33,066 nt of DNA from an uncultured Saprospiraceae bacterium (lineage in GTDB: Bacteria > Bacteroidota > Bacteroidia > Chitinophagales > Saprospiraceae), in NCBI GenBank assembly GCA_937921825.1, contig CAKZVK010000092.1, positions 1 to 33,066 of the forward strand, written 5' to 3'. The notes under the pieces were generated by a model that was given only the letters and a program-made list of their open reading frames with translations, did not search any database and had not been told where the DNA came from. The translations under genes were made by a program, and so were the position numbers. Numbering within the stretch: position 1 is the first letter of the stretch; every line of letters starts with the position of its first letter. Positions 559 through 32,347 of the stretch are shown piece after piece.

Positions 559-1260
559 TTACTTACCAATTATAAAGATCGTCGGCAGTTTGACGGTGGG
601 GTTGTCAGAGGACTTCCACTCTTTTACAGTCTTTGTTTTGATATATTGATTTTCCCCAGTAATATCTACAGCAAGACAAAGCTTAGTATTATTTTCTAAC
701 TTGCTGATTAGGGTTTTAAACAACCTTTCATTTCTATAAGGAGTCTCAATAAATATTTGTGTTTCGCCAGACTTTTGTAATCTTCTCTCTAGAGATTTTA
801 TGCTTTCAGAAAGTGCTGGTTCTTTGATTGGAATATAGCCCTTGAACGCAAAAGACTGCCCGTTAAATCCGCTAGCAGCCAGCGCCAGAAAAATAGAAGA
901 AGGTCCCACCAAAGGGATAATTTCATAGCCAGCCTTATGGCAAAGTGAAACAACTTCAGAACCTGGGTCAGCAAGTGCAGGCATTCCAGATTCACTAATC
1001 AATCCAAAAGATGTCTGCTGATTAATGAGCTCTAGTATTGGAGGAGTAGGGGCTTTAGAGTTTTTATCCAGCTCATTGATTGTAAGAGATGAGATTTCAT
1101 ACGGAGGTTTAGTCTGACTGATATAGCGTCTGGCTGTTCGAGCCCTTTCTACTACAAAATGATTAAGAGAATGTATAACCCGAATCGTGGATATAGGTAT
1201 AGTGTCAATATTTTGTTCAGAAATAAAAGTTGGTATCAGATATAATCTAGCAGCGATAAT
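559..1260 (-). CDS. RsmI-family SAM-dependent methyltransferase (tetrapyrrole methylase fold), non-canonical start
   Basis: This is the Bacteroidota paralogue of the 16S rRNA 2'-O-methyltransferase RsmI. The frame reads LYLIPTFISEQ at the N-terminus, then LISESGMPALADPGS (the tetrapyrrole-methylase glycine/proline motif) and VGPSSIFLAL, and ends TIFIIGK. About 233 residues fits the family. No ATG, GTG or TTG precedes LYLIPT in frame: an in-frame TAA lies at 1276-1278, and the only near-canonical codons are ATA (1263), ATT (1260) and ATC (1257). I placed the start at ATT 1260. The first in-frame TTG, at 1002, would delete the N-terminal third and is implausible as a start. The gene is divergent from scpA, with only about 30 bp between them. 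A frameshift near 1262-1272 that joins the frame to an ATG is the alternative. The substrate is unproven; rRNA is likely by family. Confidence 0.8.
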   Translation of the reverse strand: MIAARLYLIPTFISEQNIDTIPISTIRVIHSLNHFVVERARTARRYISQTKPPYEISSLTINELDKNSKAPTPPILELINQQTSFGLISESGMPALADPGSEVVSLCHKAGYEIIPLVGPSSIFLALAASGFNGQSFAFKGYIPIKEPALSESIKSLERRLQKSGETQIFIETPYRNERLFKTLISKLENNTKLCLAVDITGENQYIKTKTVKEWKSSDNPTVKLPTIFIIGK

Positions 1261-5709: not shown

Positions 5710-6333
5710 TTATCTCATTTTAGGTCTTCTTCTTTTTCCTTTGCCACCACCTTGTCTCATCATGCTCATACCTTGCTTTCCCATAGAACGAGCCGTCTTC
5801 ATTTGAGCTTTGTTATTGGTGATTGCTTTGTCGAAATAGTCCAACTGATTTTTGATATCGGGTTGAGTAATATTTAAAGCTTTCGCTTGCTTAAAGTAGT
5901 TCGTTGCAGCAGTGTAATTTCCTTTTGTGGCTTTAATGTTGGCTAGTTGCATTAAGACCATCGCTTTCTCATTATCTGAAGGCAGCTTAAGAGAGAGAGC
6001 AGTATTGAAATGATCTTCAGCACCTTTGTTATCTCCCTTCTGAGCAGATATCGTCCCATTCATGATGTAATAGAAAGCTCTATTGGTTACATACAGGAAC
6101 TTTGGAAATTTAGTTAGCTTCAATCTAGCTTCAGCTCCAGCAAAATCTTCGTCTTGAATAAGTTGTGCTGACGACTGTACAGTACCCAGAAAGATGTAGC
6201 TCGCTAGCATTATAAATCCCAATAACCAAAATGGAAAAGCATACCAAAACCCAAGTGTAGTGGTCAAAATAGCTCCCAATAGAAAACCACCAATTATCAG
6301 TAAGAACTTCAGATATATATTAATTGTAAACAT
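5710..6333 (-). CDS. Membrane-anchored TPR protein
   Basis: Two N-terminal transmembrane helices (about residues 7-26 and 30-50) form a hairpin. Helical repeats follow that match tetratricopeptide spacing: DFAGAEARLKL, the GDNKGAEDHFNTALSL repeat, and GNYTAATNYFKQAKAL. The tail is very basic (MMRQGGGKGKRRRPKMR), suggesting contact with phospholipid or nucleic acid. The 207-residue protein is presumably a scaffold at the inner membrane. It is the first gene of the operon with the NodB deacetylase and YkvA genes. An exact TAnnTTTG element lies 26 bp upstream. Confidence 0.75.
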   Translation of the reverse strand: MFTINIYLKFLLIIGGFLLGAILTTTLGFWYAFPFWLLGFIMLASYIFLGTVQSSAQLIQDEDFAGAEARLKLTKFPKFLYVTNRAFYYIMNGTISAQKGDNKGAEDHFNTALSLKLPSDNEKAMVLMQLANIKATKGNYTAATNYFKQAKALNITQPDIKNQLDYFDKAITNNKAQMKTARSMGKQGMSMMRQGGGKGKRRRPKMR

Positions 6334-6358
6334 GTGCTATTGCTTGAGTTGTGATAAC

Positions 6359-6366
6359 CAAAAATA
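6359..6366 (-). promoter_or_regulatory. -7 promoter element for the TPR-deacetylase-YkvA operon
   Basis: CAAAAATA on the plus strand reads TATTTTTG on the minus strand, an exact TAnnTTTG. It is 26 bp upstream of the ATG at 6333. Confidence 0.6.
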
Positions 6367-6384
6367 CTAAAATACTACGCTAGG

Positions 6385-7062
6385 CTATGATTCTAGGAAC
6401 GCTTTATCATTGATATAGACTAGATTATTTTTCACTTGTATGGCTTCCGTGTTAGGGAAGACTTCTTCCATTATAGAATCGAATAATTTGTTTTCTAGTT
6501 TGTCTTCTTCAGTGATGTTCATTCTGTTGTAAAGTAAGACGCCTTTGCTATTTAGTTTGCCACTAAGCATCTGCAGATATTCTTTTGATTGGAATTTCTG
6601 TGGGATGATAGCACTTTGAAAAATATCCATAATAATCATATCGTACTTTTCATCATTGACTGAGAGGAAAGAATGAGCCTCAGCTTGAATGACTTCTACA
6701 TATGATTTTAGATTTTTCAAAGTATAGGAATGTGCCATGCGGCATATTTCCGGATCTATTTCTACTGCTGTATAGTCGAATGTCTTATTGAGTATTTTTT
6801 CTAAGATGAGAATGACAGAACCTAAGCCTAACCCCAAGACTAATACTCTGTTGCCTTTTAATGGCTTCCAATTTACTTTTCTAAAAGCAGAACTAAAGTT
6901 CTCATACTTGTCGTCATAAGAATATATGGCATCTCTTGTAGTGAGCTGATGCCTGCCTTTGACAAGTAGGACTTCTAAGAAAGGATTATATAATGAACTG
7001 GTTTGCTCTAAGGATACATCTGTGATATAGCTGACTGCCTTTTTCCACCAAGGATGATCCAT
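6385..7062 (-). CDS. Spermidine synthase-like SAM-dependent methyltransferase
   Basis: This Rossmann-fold protein is of the SpeE/PABMT type. Motif I VLVLGLGLGS lies at residues 74-82 and the acidic ribose-binding motif VEIDPEICRMA at 100-110. MIIMDIFQSAIIP (142-154) stands where spermidine synthases have the catalytic VDSSDP. The lack of SSDP argues against a true polyamine synthase, so the substrate is unknown. The 225-residue protein has no signal. Its ATG directly abuts the TAA of the upstream GlmU-like gene with no base between, so the two are probably translationally coupled. This pairing is the best functional hint, but the link to sugar-nucleotide synthesis is inference. Confidence 0.8.
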   Translation of the reverse strand: MDHPWWKKAVSYITDVSLEQTSSLYNPFLEVLLVKGRHQLTTRDAIYSYDDKYENFSSAFRKVNWKPLKGNRVLVLGLGLGSVILILEKILNKTFDYTAVEIDPEICRMAHSYTLKNLKSYVEVIQAEAHSFLSVNDEKYDMIIMDIFQSAIIPQKFQSKEYLQMLSGKLNSKGVLLYNRMNITEEDKLENKLFDSIMEEVFPNTEAIQVKNNLVYINDKAFLES

Positions 7063-19591: not shown

Positions 19592-20269
19592 ATGTTATAC
19601 CTTGTTCCTACACCAATAGGCAATTTAGAAGACTTCACCTTTAGGGCTGTAAGGATACTAAATGAAGTCTCTACAGTGCTCGCTGAAGATACTAGAACAA
19701 GTAAGAGATTACTAGATAAATACGAGATATCTACACGATTAGAGTCATTTCATGCCCACAATGAACATAAAAAGATAGAGGCGCTCATAAGTAGATTAGA
19801 GTCTGGAGAAGATATGGCACTTATTTCTGATGCGGGCACGCCTGGTATTTCAGACCCTGGATTCCTCATCGTACGAGCAGCTATAGAGGCCGATGTGGAG
19901 CTGACTTGTCTTCCTGGTCCTACGGCATTGATTCCGGCAGTAGTTATGTCTGGTCTGCCTTGTGATCGTTTTCATTACGAGGGATTCTTGCCTCAGAAGA
20001 AAGGAAAACTAACAAGACTGAATTATCTCCTCTCACTACCTAATCCATTTATCATCTATGAATCACCCTATAGAGTAGTCAAAAGCCTGAAGAAGATGTC
20101 AGAGCTGATGGAAGAAGATAGAAAGGTCTCAGTGAGTAGAGAAATATCGAAGCTGCATGAAGAAACCCTAAGAGGAACGATATCAGAAGTTATTGCAGAG
20201 CTAGAAAAGCGACCTTCTATAAAAGGAGAGATAGTCATAGTCGTGGATGGAAAATCAGATAAGAAATAA
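19592..20269 (+). CDS. rsmI: 16S rRNA (cytidine(1402)-2'-O)-methyltransferase
   Basis: This is the canonical RsmI, 225 residues. It starts MLYLVPTPIGNLEDFTFRA, has VLAEDTRTSKRLL (the AEDTR signature), HAHNE, then LISDAGTPGISDPGF, CLPGPTALIPAVVMSGLP, and FIIYESPYRV with VSREISKLHEE. RsmI methylates C1402 of 16S rRNA at the ribose and acts in decoding accuracy. It is about the length expected for a short-form RsmI lacking the C-terminal extension of E. coli. The thioesterase gene follows 11 bp later on the same strand. Confidence 0.95.
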   Translation: MLYLVPTPIGNLEDFTFRAVRILNEVSTVLAEDTRTSKRLLDKYEISTRLESFHAHNEHKKIEALISRLESGEDMALISDAGTPGISDPGFLIVRAAIEADVELTCLPGPTALIPAVVMSGLPCDRFHYEGFLPQKKGKLTRLNYLLSLPNPFIIYESPYRVVKSLKKMSELMEEDRKVSVSREISKLHEETLRGTISEVIAELEKRPSIKGEIVIVVDGKSDKK

Positions 20270-27452: not shown

Positions 27453-27795
27453 TTGAAGACGAATCATGAACGGATGAGATCTGTTTTGTCCAATTTGTAT
27501 GACGAACTAAAGAAGAGTTCTCCGCTATCCAATTTTTTATTTATCAGCACCATTGTGCTACTGACATGGTATTCTTTTTCTCCAGCACTTGATAATAATT
27601 TTTTGTTCTGGGATGATCAGTTTTATGTAACTGCTAATCCCGATATCACATAACTTATATCTTGATCGAGCGATCTCTTATGAAAATAATGGCGATAAAT
27701 TAGAAGCCGTTGTTGATTACAAGAAAGTATTAGCGTTAGATCCAAGCAATACTTATGCCGCTCAGAGATTGGCTCAGCTTACAAATGCAGATTAA
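27453..27795 (+). pseudogene. Remnant of a TPR-containing membrane glycosyltransferase-like protein, internally deleted and frameshifted
   Basis: The first 66 codons (TTG 27453, or ATG 27474) encode a cytosolic stretch, one transmembrane helix (SNFLFISTIVLLTWYSF) and LDNNFLFWDDQFYVTANPDI. That is the start of membrane proteins of the TMTC/PMT-like family (W-D-D and YV-x-NP-x-I). The frame stops at 27651. In the next frame, 27655-27795 reads LYLDRAISYENNGDKLEAVV then DYKKVLALDPSNTYAAQRLA, a C-terminal tetratricopeptide repeat that ends with its own stop. Such proteins are usually 600-800 residues with many helices and repeats, so the middle is missing. The stop lies 3 bp before the stop of the convergent channel gene. 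No mobile element is seen at the junction. Confidence 0.8.
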
Positions 27796-27798
27796 GGA

Positions 27799-29250
27799 TT
27801 ACTGACCATTCAGCTTCTCTAGTTTTGTTCTCCGAGCATCCATCATCTGGTCCAGATGTTCTGCTAGTGTCGGGTTTCGCTCTACCATATCCAGAACCTC
27901 ATCTTGGAATACGGCGATTAATTTCATGTCTTCTAGAGCGGTTACAGAGAATGTGCTGAACCTACTTGTAAATAGGGTGATCTCTCCAAAGAAGTCTCCA
28001 GCCATTAATTGACCCAAGGATATAGTTTTATTATCAGAAGTCCTTGTTTCCATGATGGCTTTTCCTTCGAGGATAACAAAGAGGTTTCCAGTTTCGTCGC
28101 CTTGTTTGATAATCAGCTCGCCCTTCCCAAAATTTTGAATTTCCGATCCATCTATTAATTCATTGACATTGCTTTTGTTTATCGGAAGAATATTAGGCAA
28201 AGTACTTAAGGACTGTTCTAATTGAGAGTGCATACGTTGTTCATAATTTTCTACCTCACTCGCATTGTGGATCATCATCTGAGATTTAGGCATTATGAGT
28301 CGGTATCTACGAGTAGTATACCATACTCGTGACATAAAGTCATCCATTACATCTTCATGGTCTTTGAAGTCTCTTATCGCAAATTCCACTTCATAGACAA
28401 TCTTTGATTCTGTGTAGGCATTAGTTTTCACTTCTGGCTCAGGATCTAGAAGGATACCTGGTGTAGCATGACAGGTTTCCATTAGAGCTTCTTTTACTTT
28501 ATTGGGTGGATTGTCATGAGAAAACCCGATCTCAGTTTTCATGATATGGATTTTCGTCGGACGGCTGAAGTTCTTTATTGCACCCTGACCTATAATAAGA
28601 TGCGGGATTACTATAAGTTCTTTTTCTCTGGTTTCTAGTCTTATGGCACGCCAGTTCATTTCTATTACTCTTCCTCTTTGCTCCTCCACTTCAATGTAGT
28701 CTCCCTCCGAAAAAGGTTTTTCATATACTAAAGCTATTCCAGAAAATAGGTTACCTAACGTATCTTGTAAGGCAAGACCTATAACGAAGGACCCTAGCCC
28801 TAATGCTGTAACCAGTCCTCCGAGATCAGCACCCCAGACCATAGATAATACTATGGCAGCTCCAAGTAATACCATCATCACTCTGAAGATGTCTAGAAAG
28901 AGTTGTGGTATCTTGGTTTTTCTCTTGGTTCCGAACTCTGAAAAGAACACCACATTGACGATGGCTATAAGTGCATTCACTATTAGAATCCAGATGAATG
29001 TCTCCAGTAGTTTCATTACTGTAGAGCTACGAGGGAACTCTAGTATCTGAGTCAGGACAATGCTTATGGCTGCAAGGGGAAGGACAATGTTCTTGAATGT
29101 ATTGATAGGGGAGACTAGAGACTTGTTCTTTCTTCTTGCGAAATAGGTTATTTCGTTAATGAGGACGACAATGAGAGGGACACATACGATAAGGAGGATG
29201 CCGTAGAGAAACCAATTGTTATCAAATATGTCTAGTGAGAAAAAATCCAT
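27799..29250 (-). CDS. MscS-family channel with a C-terminal cyclic-nucleotide-binding domain
   Basis: The 483-residue protein has about four helices (near residues 13-33, 52-70, 82-103 and 119-139), then the MscS pore and beta region: GLVTALGLGSFVIGLALQDT, LGNLFSGIALVYEKPFSEGD and GRVIEMNWRAIRLET. A cyclic-nucleotide-binding domain occupies about 360-460 (GELIIKQGDETGNLFVILEG, MAGDFFGEITLFTSRFST). This layout is that of the bacterial cyclic-nucleotide-gated (bCNG) branch of MscS, in which gating by ligand can replace tension. The phosphate-binding cassette has the conserved glutamate (E423), but the canonical arginine position is serine (S432), with R430 two residues earlier. The start is 2 bp after the cyclase stop, so the two genes form one transcript. 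Confidence 0.92.
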   Translation of the reverse strand: MDFFSLDIFDNNWFLYGILLIVCVPLIVVLINEITYFARRKNKSLVSPINTFKNIVLPLAAISIVLTQILEFPRSSTVMKLLETFIWILIVNALIAIVNVVFFSEFGTKRKTKIPQLFLDIFRVMMVLLGAAIVLSMVWGADLGGLVTALGLGSFVIGLALQDTLGNLFSGIALVYEKPFSEGDYIEVEEQRGRVIEMNWRAIRLETREKELIVIPHLIIGQGAIKNFSRPTKIHIMKTEIGFSHDNPPNKVKEALMETCHATPGILLDPEPEVKTNAYTESKIVYEVEFAIRDFKDHEDVMDDFMSRVWYTTRRYRLIMPKSQMMIHNASEVENYEQRMHSQLEQSLSTLPNILPINKSNVNELIDGSEIQNFGKGELIIKQGDETGNLFVILEGKAIMETRTSDNKTISLGQLMAGDFFGEITLFTSRFSTFSVTALEDMKLIAVFQDEVLDMVERNPTLAEHLDQMMDARRTKLEKLNGQ

Positions 29251-29252
29251 CT

Positions 29253-31373
29253 TTAGGCCTTTTTACGTTCTTCGACAAATTTCCAAGCATCGACATTTAC
29301 TCGTGAGGATTTTGGCAGTTCAGTTTTCTTAAAGACAAAATATCCTTCAGTCTTGTTATGTATTTCTGTAGAGACTAGAATCTCATGGTCGTCAGCTGCA
29401 TCCCTAAGCATAAAGACTTCGTTTATGGTTTTGCCCCAGAGGTCATAACTAAATTTTTCATTACCCACGATACCAGCTATGACTTCGCCACTATGGATAC
29501 CTATGTTTAGTGACAATTTGATGTTGTAGTTTATGTTGAACTGAATAATAAGTTGCCGCAGTTCTAAACCAAATTCTAATATTCTTTTGGCATGATCTAA
29601 TCGTGGGTAGAACATGCCACAGGCCGCAAAGTAACTATCTCCTACAGTTCTTATTTTTTCTACATGATGCTTATGGGCTGCGATGTCAAAGGCCTCTACG
29701 ATGCTATTAAGTAGATTAATAGATTCTGAGGGACCTAGTGAGGAGGTTAGTTCTGAAAATCCTGTAATGTCGATAGCAACTAAAGAGACATTTGGATAAG
29801 TCTCTACGATGTTTTTTTCACCTTGCTGTAGACGTTTGGCTATGGTCTCGGGAATAAAATTTAAAAGTAGTTTTTCATTCTCCAAGCTATGTTGTTCCAG
29901 TAATTGTTGTTGCTCATCTATATTGTGAGTCATTTCATTAAAGGAATGCGCTAGTTCTCCGATCTCATCATTTGTATGGATGTCAATTTCTTGGCTATAG
30001 TCACCATTGCTTATTCTATGTACTCCCTCAGAGAGCAGCTCTATAGGTCTTACAAATTTGCCGGCAAGGTACATCGCAAAGAAAGTAACTAAGAGAATGA
30101 TAATACACAGCGCTATGAAAACTTTCTTCTGGAATTTATAGATGGGGATATTAGCTTCTGCTTCATCTAGCTCCGAAAGTATAGCCCAGTTTAGATCTCG
30201 TAGATGTAGAGGTGCATAAGAACTTAATACAGGTATGTGGCGATAGTCCTCTATGATTCTCGTTTCATTTTTTCCTGCAAGCGCTGCGGCAACACCTTCG
30301 GTCTTTACCCGTTGATTTAGTATTGTGGTACCGATTCGGTACATTCTTTCTATTGCTTCCTTTTCTATTCCCAAAGTCATCAGTGCCTCAGTATAACCGA
30401 CTGTATCTTGTAAGTAGAAACGGGAAATAGATCTCATCAGATAGTCTTCCCCTACCAAATAGGTTTCTCCAGACTGACCCAAGCCATCAGCTTCCCAATT
30501 GTTGCTGCCAGTCATTATTCTATTGATCTCATCCACGGGCAATTGTAATACTAGAGCACCTATGACTTCAGCGCCTTCCGTGACCGGCATGCCGACAAAG
30601 GCTGCTGGAGCTCCGTAAGATGGTCGATAAGCCTCAAAATCAATAAACTTAGCTTTGCTAAGGTCACTGTTAGATCTGAGTATTCTAGATAGATCGGCTA
30701 GATTACTTTCCCTATACGGTCCGGTGTAGAGATTCGTAGCAAAGTCCGTTTCTTTATAAGCAGTGTAGACGATATCTCCTCTTTCTAGGTCTATCAGGAA
30801 GATATCATAGAATCCGAACTTACTTGTCAGTTCTGAGAGGTAGGTGTGATACTTCTGATGTGCTTGTCCATAAGCGCTATAATCTTCAGAATTGAGATAC
30901 TTCTGTTTTTCGCCTAAGGGGTGAGGGTTAGTGACTATATAGTTGTACTGCAAGTGACAGGCCTCCAGAGACTTAGGGTAGTAAATATCAATATCTGATT
31001 TGACATCTATATTTTGGGACATCCGATCTATAAAATCATTATAGTGGTTACTCAACTGTTGGTTGCACTCTGGTGGTATTTCCTGTTTGCTGATTTCTTT
31101 GTATCCTTTTTTGAAGTCTCTCAGGGCTGATACGATCATTTCATTGGTTCCCAAGACTTCTGTAAGGTTAGCTATCTCGTCAAAATAGCTTTCTATCTGA
31201 TATTTTTTAGAAGCTTTTACACTGGTAAGTTGATTGAAAATACTCTCACTGATGGATTCCTTACCCGAGATGTAGCCAATATATATGAGAACTATACCAG
31301 AAATGGCACTGACAAGAATAAGCATAAGGATCAGTCGTGATCTTATGCTTAAGGAATTGATTTTAAGAGGCAT
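29253..31373 (-). CDS. Receptor-type class III adenylate/guanylate cyclase (dCache-like sensor, HAMP, cyclase domain)
   Basis: The 706-residue inner-membrane protein has TM1 (about 13-35) and a large periplasmic sensor (about 36-412). The sensor has dCache-like segments such as FGFYDIFLIDLERGDIVY and GAPAAFVGMPVTEGAEVIGA. TM2 (about 418-438), HAMP (about 440-492, with NDEIGELAHSFNEMT) and a class III cyclase domain (about 525-700) follow. Metal aspartates D535 (AIDITGF) and D579 (TVGD) are present, as are D644 and N651 (YDLWGKTIN). R575 replaces the usual lysine or glutamate base-specifying residue. M655 stands where the transition-state arginine is expected (N+4). The channel gene follows 2 bp later. 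The ligand sensed is unknown; activity is predicted by family but uncertain. Confidence 0.92.
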   Translation of the reverse strand: MPLKINSLSIRSRLILMLILVSAISGIVLIYIGYISGKESISESIFNQLTSVKASKKYQIESYFDEIANLTEVLGTNEMIVSALRDFKKGYKEISKQEIPPECNQQLSNHYNDFIDRMSQNIDVKSDIDIYYPKSLEACHLQYNYIVTNPHPLGEKQKYLNSEDYSAYGQAHQKYHTYLSELTSKFGFYDIFLIDLERGDIVYTAYKETDFATNLYTGPYRESNLADLSRILRSNSDLSKAKFIDFEAYRPSYGAPAAFVGMPVTEGAEVIGALVLQLPVDEINRIMTGSNNWEADGLGQSGETYLVGEDYLMRSISRFYLQDTVGYTEALMTLGIEKEAIERMYRIGTTILNQRVKTEGVAAALAGKNETRIIEDYRHIPVLSSYAPLHLRDLNWAILSELDEAEANIPIYKFQKKVFIALCIIILLVTFFAMYLAGKFVRPIELLSEGVHRISNGDYSQEIDIHTNDEIGELAHSFNEMTHNIDEQQQLLEQHSLENEKLLLNFIPETIAKRLQQGEKNIVETYPNVSLVAIDITGFSELTSSLGPSESINLLNSIVEAFDIAAHKHHVEKIRTVGDSYFAACGMFYPRLDHAKRILEFGLELRQLIIQFNINYNIKLSLNIGIHSGEVIAGIVGNEKFSYDLWGKTINEVFMLRDAADDHEILVSTEIHNKTEGYFVFKKTELPKSSRVNVDAWKFVEERKKA

Positions 31374-31618: not shown

Positions 31619-32347
31619 ATGTTGCAAACGATAATTCTGAATGACGATATTCTCTCATCGTTAGAATATAAATTAGTCCTAAATGAATTAGGCATTACGC
31701 TTAACGGTACTTACAAATCTTGGAAGCAAGCAATTCCTCAGATAAAAAGAGAACAGCCAGATTTTATGATTGTTGACTTCAATCTATCTGAGAAAGAAAC
31801 TGCTCTAGATTTCCTAGACGAGATGGATGATTGTTTTGTTCCTAGTATATTAGTATCTGACTTCTCTGATCCCACTCTGGTGGACTCTATCCTTAGTAGG
31901 AATGTAGTTGCTATCATCCCTAAACCATTGGATAAAACGCTGTTTAATTTTCATCTCAAAAAGTTAGTGGTTGAGTTGAAGTCAAAACAGACCTGCTCTA
32001 GTTATCTAGTGATAAAGGATAAAAAAAGATTAATCAGAATTCCTGATAGTAAAATTGTTATGATAAAGATTGATGGAAATTATTCTGTCATTGTATTAGA
32101 ATCAGGTAAGAAGTTTGTGATCAAAATGTCCTTGGTAAAACTAATAGAAAAGCTTAACCAAGATAAGTTCTTACGATGCCATAGGTCGAGTCTTATAAAT
32201 GTAGATAAAGTGCGAGAGTTAGATTTAGATGCTAATGTCATAACCCTAGTTAATAATATAGAAATAAAAATAGGGTCGAAGTATAGGTATGAAATAAAGA
32301 AGCAATTGCAAGGGAAGCAGTATTGTGGTAATGTAGTTAATCGTTAG
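31619..32347 (+). CDS. LytTR-type response regulator
   Basis: The 242-residue protein has an N-terminal receiver: acidic N9/D10 pair region (IILNDDILSS), phosphoacceptor D53 (FMIVDFNL), S80 (ILVSDFSD) and K102 (IIPKPLDK). A C-terminal LytTR DNA-binding domain spans about 130-235, with IVMIKIDGNYSVIVLESGKK, RCHRSSLINVDKVREL and IKIGSKYRYEIK. It should bind short direct repeats upstream of target genes when phosphorylated. No histidine kinase is next to it. The palindrome 44 bp upstream could be an autoregulatory site, but LytTR sites are usually direct repeats. It is divergent from the receptor cyclase operon. Confidence 0.92.
   Translation: MLQTIILNDDILSSLEYKLVLNELGITLNGTYKSWKQAIPQIKREQPDFMIVDFNLSEKETALDFLDEMDDCFVPSILVSDFSDPTLVDSILSRNVVAIIPKPLDKTLFNFHLKKLVVELKSKQTCSSYLVIKDKKRLIRIPDSKIVMIKIDGNYSVIVLESGKKFVIKMSLVKLIEKLNQDKFLRCHRSSLINVDKVRELDLDANVITLVNNIEIKIGSKYRYEIKKQLQGKQYCGNVVNR

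Follow-up and report, generated by a model that had tools for sequence, protein, structure and literature searches.

The window analyzed here is a 33,066-nucleotide stretch of DNA (contig CAKZVK010000092.1 of assembly GCA_937921825.1) from an uncultured Saprospiraceae bacterium. Its reverse strand carries two adjoining genes, one for a membrane receptor with a class III cyclase-like domain and one for a channel of the MscS type. The receptor gene (29253-31373; 706 aa), delimited by its open reading frame (ORF), Pfam matches, and an AlphaFold model, encodes three elements: a transmembrane, dCache-type extracytoplasmic sensor (residues about 31-408; 30150-31283), whose boundaries are estimated from the predicted model and whose dCache_1 match (E 1.9e-7, residues 182-314) falls under the Pfam cut-off; a HAMP domain (residues 436-486; 29916-30068; E 1.1e-15); and a class III cyclase-like domain placed by Pfam and alignment (residues 524-676; 29346-29804; Guanylate_cyc, E 1.4e-36). 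The last two matches are over their cut-offs. The channel gene (27799-29250, same strand; 483 aa), identified by ORF, Pfam, and model, encodes N-terminal helices, the MscS beta domain (28561-28764), and a C-terminal cyclic-nucleotide-binding (CNB) domain (27874-28137); its Pfam matches, all over cut-offs, are MS_channel_2nd (PF00924, E 1.6e-17), MS_channel_3rd (PF21082, E 1.3e-6), and cNMP_binding (PF00027, E 1.1e-18). Two base pairs (29251-29252) separate the receptor stop codon from the channel ATG. The original prediction, made from the sequence alone, had a receptor with HAMP and class III cyclase domains ending 2 bp before an MscS-CNB channel, and the ORFs and Pfam agree with it.

Both proteins are assembled from parts of known kinds. 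Receptor class III cyclases are known as a group by their sensor-HAMP-cyclase architecture, which the window receptor shares, its sensor by the sub-cut-off dCache match. Class III cyclases are also the best Foldseek matches of its model (mean pLDDT 78.6, pTM 0.54), with a TMt of 0.89 against the Rv1625c domain 7yz9_A. The channel resembles the bCNG channels, reportedly described by Caldwell in 2010 and Malcolm in 2012 as members of the MscS superfamily with a C-terminal CNB domain: an MscS pore and beta domain (PF00924, PF21082) precede the CNB domain (PF00027), and its model (mean pLDDT 77.6, pTM 0.46) finds its best Foldseek matches in MscS and YnaI. The genome that contains the window (4.0 Mb, 172 contigs, 96.5% complete) holds a single match to the class III cyclase family (PF00211), the window receptor itself, along with six CNB and eight MscS-domain matches, the window channel being included in each count.

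The pair is not confined to one strain, a point on which the proposal of a two-gene unit depended. Forty-seven copies, the window included, were compared from Bacteroidota and Cyanobacteria. In all 46 further pairs the receptor gene comes first and on the same strand, as in the window, so this adjacency is more than chance. The channel frame starts no more than 75 bp past the receptor stop, or overlaps it, in 34 of the 46; no true gap exceeds 948 bp (locus L202), since the 1647 bp in L207 reflect an insertion in the receptor gene. Among 150 genomes of the window's family, 20 contain a channel match at E 1e-20. In five, counting the window, the match spans nearly all of the channel with at least 57% identity, and the same five have the receptor directly upstream, one of them (G035) without its cyclase domain. 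The other two same-genus genomes gave no channel match and, to the receptor, only cyclase-domain matches.

Two exact peptide patterns, run against a named genome collection, returned 51 loci encoding a channel relative, which is no census. The receptor lies upstream in all 15 Bacteroidota loci at 51-74% channel identity (14 of them from Saprospiraceae) and in both cyanobacterial loci, from Cyanobacteria bacterium SBLK and Nostoc sp. FACHB-973. It was seen beside none of the other 34, some of which have little upstream sequence; for non-operon loci with less than 1 kb upstream (for example L105, L109, and L110), absence of the receptor is unproven. In L092 and L093, a different class III cyclase gene lies at some distance and matches weakly; that of L092 is of the CHASE2 type.

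Searches with the receptor only (E 1e-70, with two candidates scored per genome, so that second copies may be missed) give a similar picture. Within the phylum to which G150 (the source of the Nostoc locus) belongs, 29 of 386 genomes match, with 31 genes. Sensor and cyclase domain are both present in 28 of these genes, 27 of which (in 25 genomes) adjoin the channel, leaving L204 as the sole sensor-plus-cyclase gene without it; L209 and L210 match in the sensor and HAMP but not the cyclase domain, and L211 in the cyclase domain only. Seven of 395 genomes match in the window's phylum: in three (the window, G428, and G436) the gene combines a sensor with a cyclase domain and, each time, adjoins the channel; L177, L178, and L212 match by the sensor side, and L181 by the cyclase domain only. 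Together, 30 of 31 sensor-plus-cyclase genes adjoin the channel, or 28 of 29 without the window and G150, which were known beforehand. Counted by genome, the pair occurs in 3 of 395, 5 of 150, and 25 of 386. It is thus patchy across genomes, yet tightly linked, and recurs in two phyla.

The identities of receptor and channel are correlated over 44 pairs (0.975), a value that shared ancestry could produce by itself. No third gene occurs in more than eight of 48 loci, and the commonest, a PBP_like_2 gene, is found near the pair in eight; flank lengths vary, and rare partners could escape. Natural fusions of receptor and channel were not noticed among the 47 pairs, in which no dedicated search for them was made. 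The recurrence of order, strand, and partner strongly supports a functional, co-inherited two-gene unit, as the original prediction held.

The channels of this unit differ from bCNG channels in one residue of the CNB domain, a change that, like those in the window cyclase described below, the original prediction did not note. In the window CNB domain, S432 (27955-27957) occupies the position of the phosphate-binding arginine, whose role is to neutralize the cyclic phosphate, and the Gly-Glu at 422-423 is kept. Across the 47 operon channels the position is Ser in 41, Gly in four, Asn in one, and Cys in one; Arg occurs in none. A gap-free alignment to solved PKG CNB domains agrees on the position. 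The CNB cassette with a phosphate-binding Arg, expected of a bCNG channel, is therefore absent from the window channel and from the other operon channels compared, each of which has a receptor gene of its own next door. Two positions before the lost Arg, most cyanobacterial operon channels carry Glu.

The cyclase site is more varied. Six positions were followed, which we take to be those for two metal ions, substrate specificity (two), and the transition state (two). At these, the window cyclase reads D, R, D, D, N, and M, four of six being canonical. It keeps D535 and D579 (metal), D644 (second specificity Asp), and N651 (transition-state Asn), and has R575 at the purine-specifying Lys position and M655 at the transition-state Arg position. 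Class III active-site residues are named in PMC3770947 and PMC4215837. Receptors tabulated at these positions number 44: the receptors of L070 (no cyclase domain), L081 (cut by a contig end, residues seen D, R, D, D, N, G), and L207 (interrupted) were left out of table and tree, and L080, L084, L086, L087, L097, and L098 were dropped as second copies of included loci. Of the two metal Asps, the first is present in 28 receptors and the second in 34; 28 have both and 10 have neither. The Lys position is Lys in 24, Arg in 13, and another residue in seven; the second specificity Asp is present in 35, the Asn in 30, and the transition-state Arg in eight. Overall, at least one canonical residue is replaced in 39 of the 44, the receptors standing nearly always beside one channel family; in both respects they differ from receptor cyclases as a group. 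By comparison, 25 non-operon class III loci from genomes of the family, the best 25 of a longer list of matches, have both metal Asps, the second Asp, the Asn, and the Arg throughout, with Lys in 23 and Glu in two. On a tree of the receptors the two-metal state requires at least five changes; the tree is a quick one with SH-aLRT support only and several long branches, and it does not tell the direction of change.

In a six-row cyanobacterial clade without the metal Asps, five overlapping pairs gave cyclase-domain dN/dS ratios of 0.093, 0.258, 0.227, 0.144, and 0.242; the degenerate domain is under purifying selection. Both partners also have residues specific to the operon. Channel E33 and P58 occur in 44 of 44 operon members, as against 0 and 2, respectively, of 16 Arg-bearing non-operon channels chosen out of 39, and receptor R514 occurs in 44 of 44 as against one of 25 control cyclases. 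Such invariant residues would fit an interface between the two proteins.

The original prediction saw in the pair a complete cascade, in which the cyclase makes a second messenger that the CNB domain reads. The unit stands; the messenger step is weakened. Because none of the 47 channels has the CNB Arg, and 16 of 44 receptors have another residue at one metal Asp or at both (10 of them at both), a cyclic nucleotide made and read in canonical fashion is unlikely as the mechanism of the whole family. The pattern suggests that control of the channel by the receptor may take an unusual form, the parts for making and reading a messenger being often worn down while the pair persists. We tentatively favor, at somewhat less than an even chance, a co-inherited receptor-channel unit coupled locally without canonical reading of cAMP or cGMP, perhaps with the cyclase-like domain in contact with the CNB-like one. 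The dCache sensor would read a periplasmic signal; the HAMP helices would relay it to a cyclase-like dimer at the inner face of the membrane; and this dimer would alter gating of the MscS channel through the CNB-like domain at its C terminus. Presumably the two domains would touch directly, nucleotide turnover being optional and perhaps modulatory in members like that of the window. That the receptor gates the channel, and that contact is the route, are both steps that we infer.

Two lines of reasoning point this way. All operon channels lack the phosphate-binding Arg, even beside intact cyclases, so the shared coupling most likely needs no canonical recognition of cAMP or cGMP. Moreover, since cyclases have lost catalytic residues repeatedly in pairs that persisted, and receptors without the metal Asps still keep their channel, the coupling most likely needs no canonical cyclic nucleotide reading, and direct contact is its simplest form. 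A bolder version is possible rather than probable: a receptor-operated channel, found in two phyla, in which an often catalytically dead, cyclase-derived domain gates an MscS channel by binding a CNB-derived domain. On this view the cyclic-nucleotide pathway, having independently shed its messenger on more than one occasion, would live on as an interface between two proteins.

Several observations count against coupling without a messenger. All six canonical residues remain in five of the 44 receptors (L089, L192, L193, L196, and L197), and the window cyclase, which keeps D535, D579, D644, and N651, may be active to judge by these residues. Among the 16 receptors in which a metal Asp is replaced, three (L176, L183, and L185) have Glu at the position of metal Asp 1, and this Glu may still bind metal; 11 of the 16 form one clade; and, by our own count, the tree needs four changes when the Glu pair L183/L185 is left out. 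In the metal-less clade the channel pore (dN/dS 0.28-0.72) is less constrained than the cyclase domain, and cyclase-domain ratios in intact groups are 0.02-0.21, several intact pairs (0.02-0.04) being tighter than the metal-less clade. Some relaxation or decay in that clade is thus possible. As for the CNB domain, the operon channels all lack the Arg, but they are not alone in this: 39 non-operon MscS-CNB channels divide into 18 with Arg, 17 without, and four unreadable, so that 17 of 35 readable ones lack it. Finally, all 16 Bacteroidota operon channels in the table have Lys or Arg two positions earlier, a residue that might stand in for the lost Arg.

The main alternative is a non-standard form of the original cascade, in which an active window cyclase would use ATP or another nucleotide, and the CNB domain would read the product weakly or unusually, sensing only a high local concentration close to the enzyme. 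The kept metal Asps and Asn, the Gly-Glu of the window CNB domain with the Bacteroidota basic residue nearby, and the standing of the window receptor as the only PF00211 match in its genome all speak for it. So does precedent: in Xanthomonas campestris, the linked genes XC_0250 and XC_0249 encode a class III cyclase and a CNB effector with shown cGMP coupling, the XC_0249 CNB domain binding cGMP at 0.29 uM (PMC3770947). XC_0250 makes cGMP even though Leu and Ala occupy its Asn and Arg positions (PMC3770947), and Ma1120, in which Ala takes the place of the Asn, is active as well (PMC4215837); the residue changes in the window therefore do not prove inactivity. The absence of the CNB Arg from all 47 channels, the retention of the channel by the 16 receptors with a replaced metal Asp, and the Lys-to-Arg and Arg-to-Met changes in the window pull the other way. 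We regard this cascade as a serious but lesser contender; for members with metal Asps, a local unusual messenger ranks close behind the contact reading. A ligand of another sort, a nucleoside or small molecule supplied or tuned by the receptor, is improbable. Ser at 41 of 47 positions suggests kept function rather than decay, and the regulatory subunits of trypanosomatid protein kinase A (PKA), whose CNB Arg is likewise replaced by polar residues, bind nucleosides instead of cAMP (PMC10959531). These are eukaryotic kinase regulators in which Glu replaces Ala202 (R209/A202 numbering follows PMC10959531); the operon channels, read by eye from the alignment, have Thr, Ala, Ser, or Val (L188) there and in no case Glu. 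With the polar replacement present and the Ala202-to-Glu signature absent, a nucleoside-binding CNB of the trypanosome PKA type was rejected.

It is also doubtful that the two products are co-expressed and work apart, the cyclase signaling through other CNB proteins and the channel acting as an ordinary osmotic valve. The genome offers the means, with five other CNB matches, three of them with Arg at the cassette position as read by eye, and seven other MscS-domain matches. Against it, the two genes pair strictly in both phyla, most loci have no third gene in common, the identities correlate (subject to the reservation about descent), and the metal-less receptors keep their channel. A defense pair like Pycsar, in which a pyrimidine cyclase serves a membrane effector, is scarcely credible, and the suggestion of membrane-directed defense in the original prediction is not supported. 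Pycsar does pair a class III cyclase (PycC) with a CNB effector (PycTM or PycTIR), sometimes a membrane protein (PMC11224242), and R575 lies four residues before a metal Asp, as R142 precedes D146 in the cytidylate cyclase EaPycC (PMC11224242). EaPycC F100 and Q144 are unmatched (A533 and V577 by position); PsPycTIR keeps the CNB Arg (PMC11224242), which the operon channels lack; and the receptor carries an extracytoplasmic sensor. PADLOC returned no strong defense-family match for the window proteins, only weak ones to PycTIR and PycC profiles (best E 6.9e-7 for the channel and 1.4e-6, 26 bits, PycC, for the receptor; a cyanobacterial receptor, L192, reached 5.3e-13 to PycC); the common descent of class III domains and of CNB domains accounts for these matches. 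With weak profiles and one of three EaPycC substrate residues, Pycsar-like pyrimidine signaling was rejected.

A related published arrangement is that of Xanthomonas, likewise a linked cyclase with replaced transition-state residues and a CNB effector; there, the effector is a diguanylate cyclase, not a channel, and the cyclase is attached to TPRs (PMC3770947). For a pair of the present kind, in which an MscS-CNB channel without the Arg is inherited together with its receptor and the cyclase site has been lost repeatedly, no published account was found in the open-licence literature, a scope that leaves the primary bCNG papers outside.

Variants of the two genes were met along the way. In L070 (G035; about 1560-1660), some 680 bp present in L071 are gone, removing the cyclase domain and shifting the receptor frame in HAMP while the channel frame stays open; the loss may be real or an assembly fault. 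The receptor gene of L207 is interrupted within the cyclase domain by a segment (6103-7057) with an opposite-strand ORF of 304 aa, transposase-like by eye. Two metal-less cyanobacterial receptors (L202:4135-6798 and L203:4099-6753) bear a C-terminal globin after the cyclase-like domain (Pfam E 1.1e-13 and 4.4e-14). The same sensor type occurs on chemoreceptor-like proteins: L177 and L209, which have an MCPsignal domain by Pfam, and, to judge by match range only, L178, L210, and L212. The PBP_like_2 gene, which resembles periplasmic binding proteins, lies near the pair in eight cyanobacterial loci, L176, L180, L201-L203, L205, L206, and L208 (identified by Pfam in the copies of L176 and L180), and a periplasmic binding protein domain is fused to an MscS channel in L111:954-4559 and L116:559-4044 (both with CNB) and in L125:3829-6834, forming single-chain sensor channels. 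Alphaproteobacterial or Burkholderia-type MscS-CNB channels without the Arg occur at L105, L106, L108-L110, L112-L115, L117-L121, L123, L124, and L127, and no receptor match was found in the available sequence around them.

Other features of the window are less closely tied to the pair. A LytTR regulator gene next door (31619-32347) was considered as a partner and rejected: at E 1e-20 it has no match in the same-genus genomes G032 and G135, nor in G066, and the two matches in G019 lie on contigs other than the pair's. Just past the channel 3' end, a short TPR-like frame without evident start (27652-27795, plus strand) is perhaps a gene remnant. Two ORFs (559-1002, minus strand; 19592-20269, plus strand) appear RsmI-like methyltransferases from their translations.

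MscS channels are regarded chiefly as valves that respond to tension; to our knowledge, it is not settled how far the bacterial ones with a CNB domain are governed by cyclic nucleotides. A receptor that accompanies one of these channels in two phyla suggests where an upstream signal comes from. Moreover, pairs with and without the metal Asps provide a natural test of the need for a messenger. If contact between the cyclase-like and CNB-like domains proves true, it would amount to a novel mode of channel opening, and would show cleanly how an enzyme domain can become a signaling interface.

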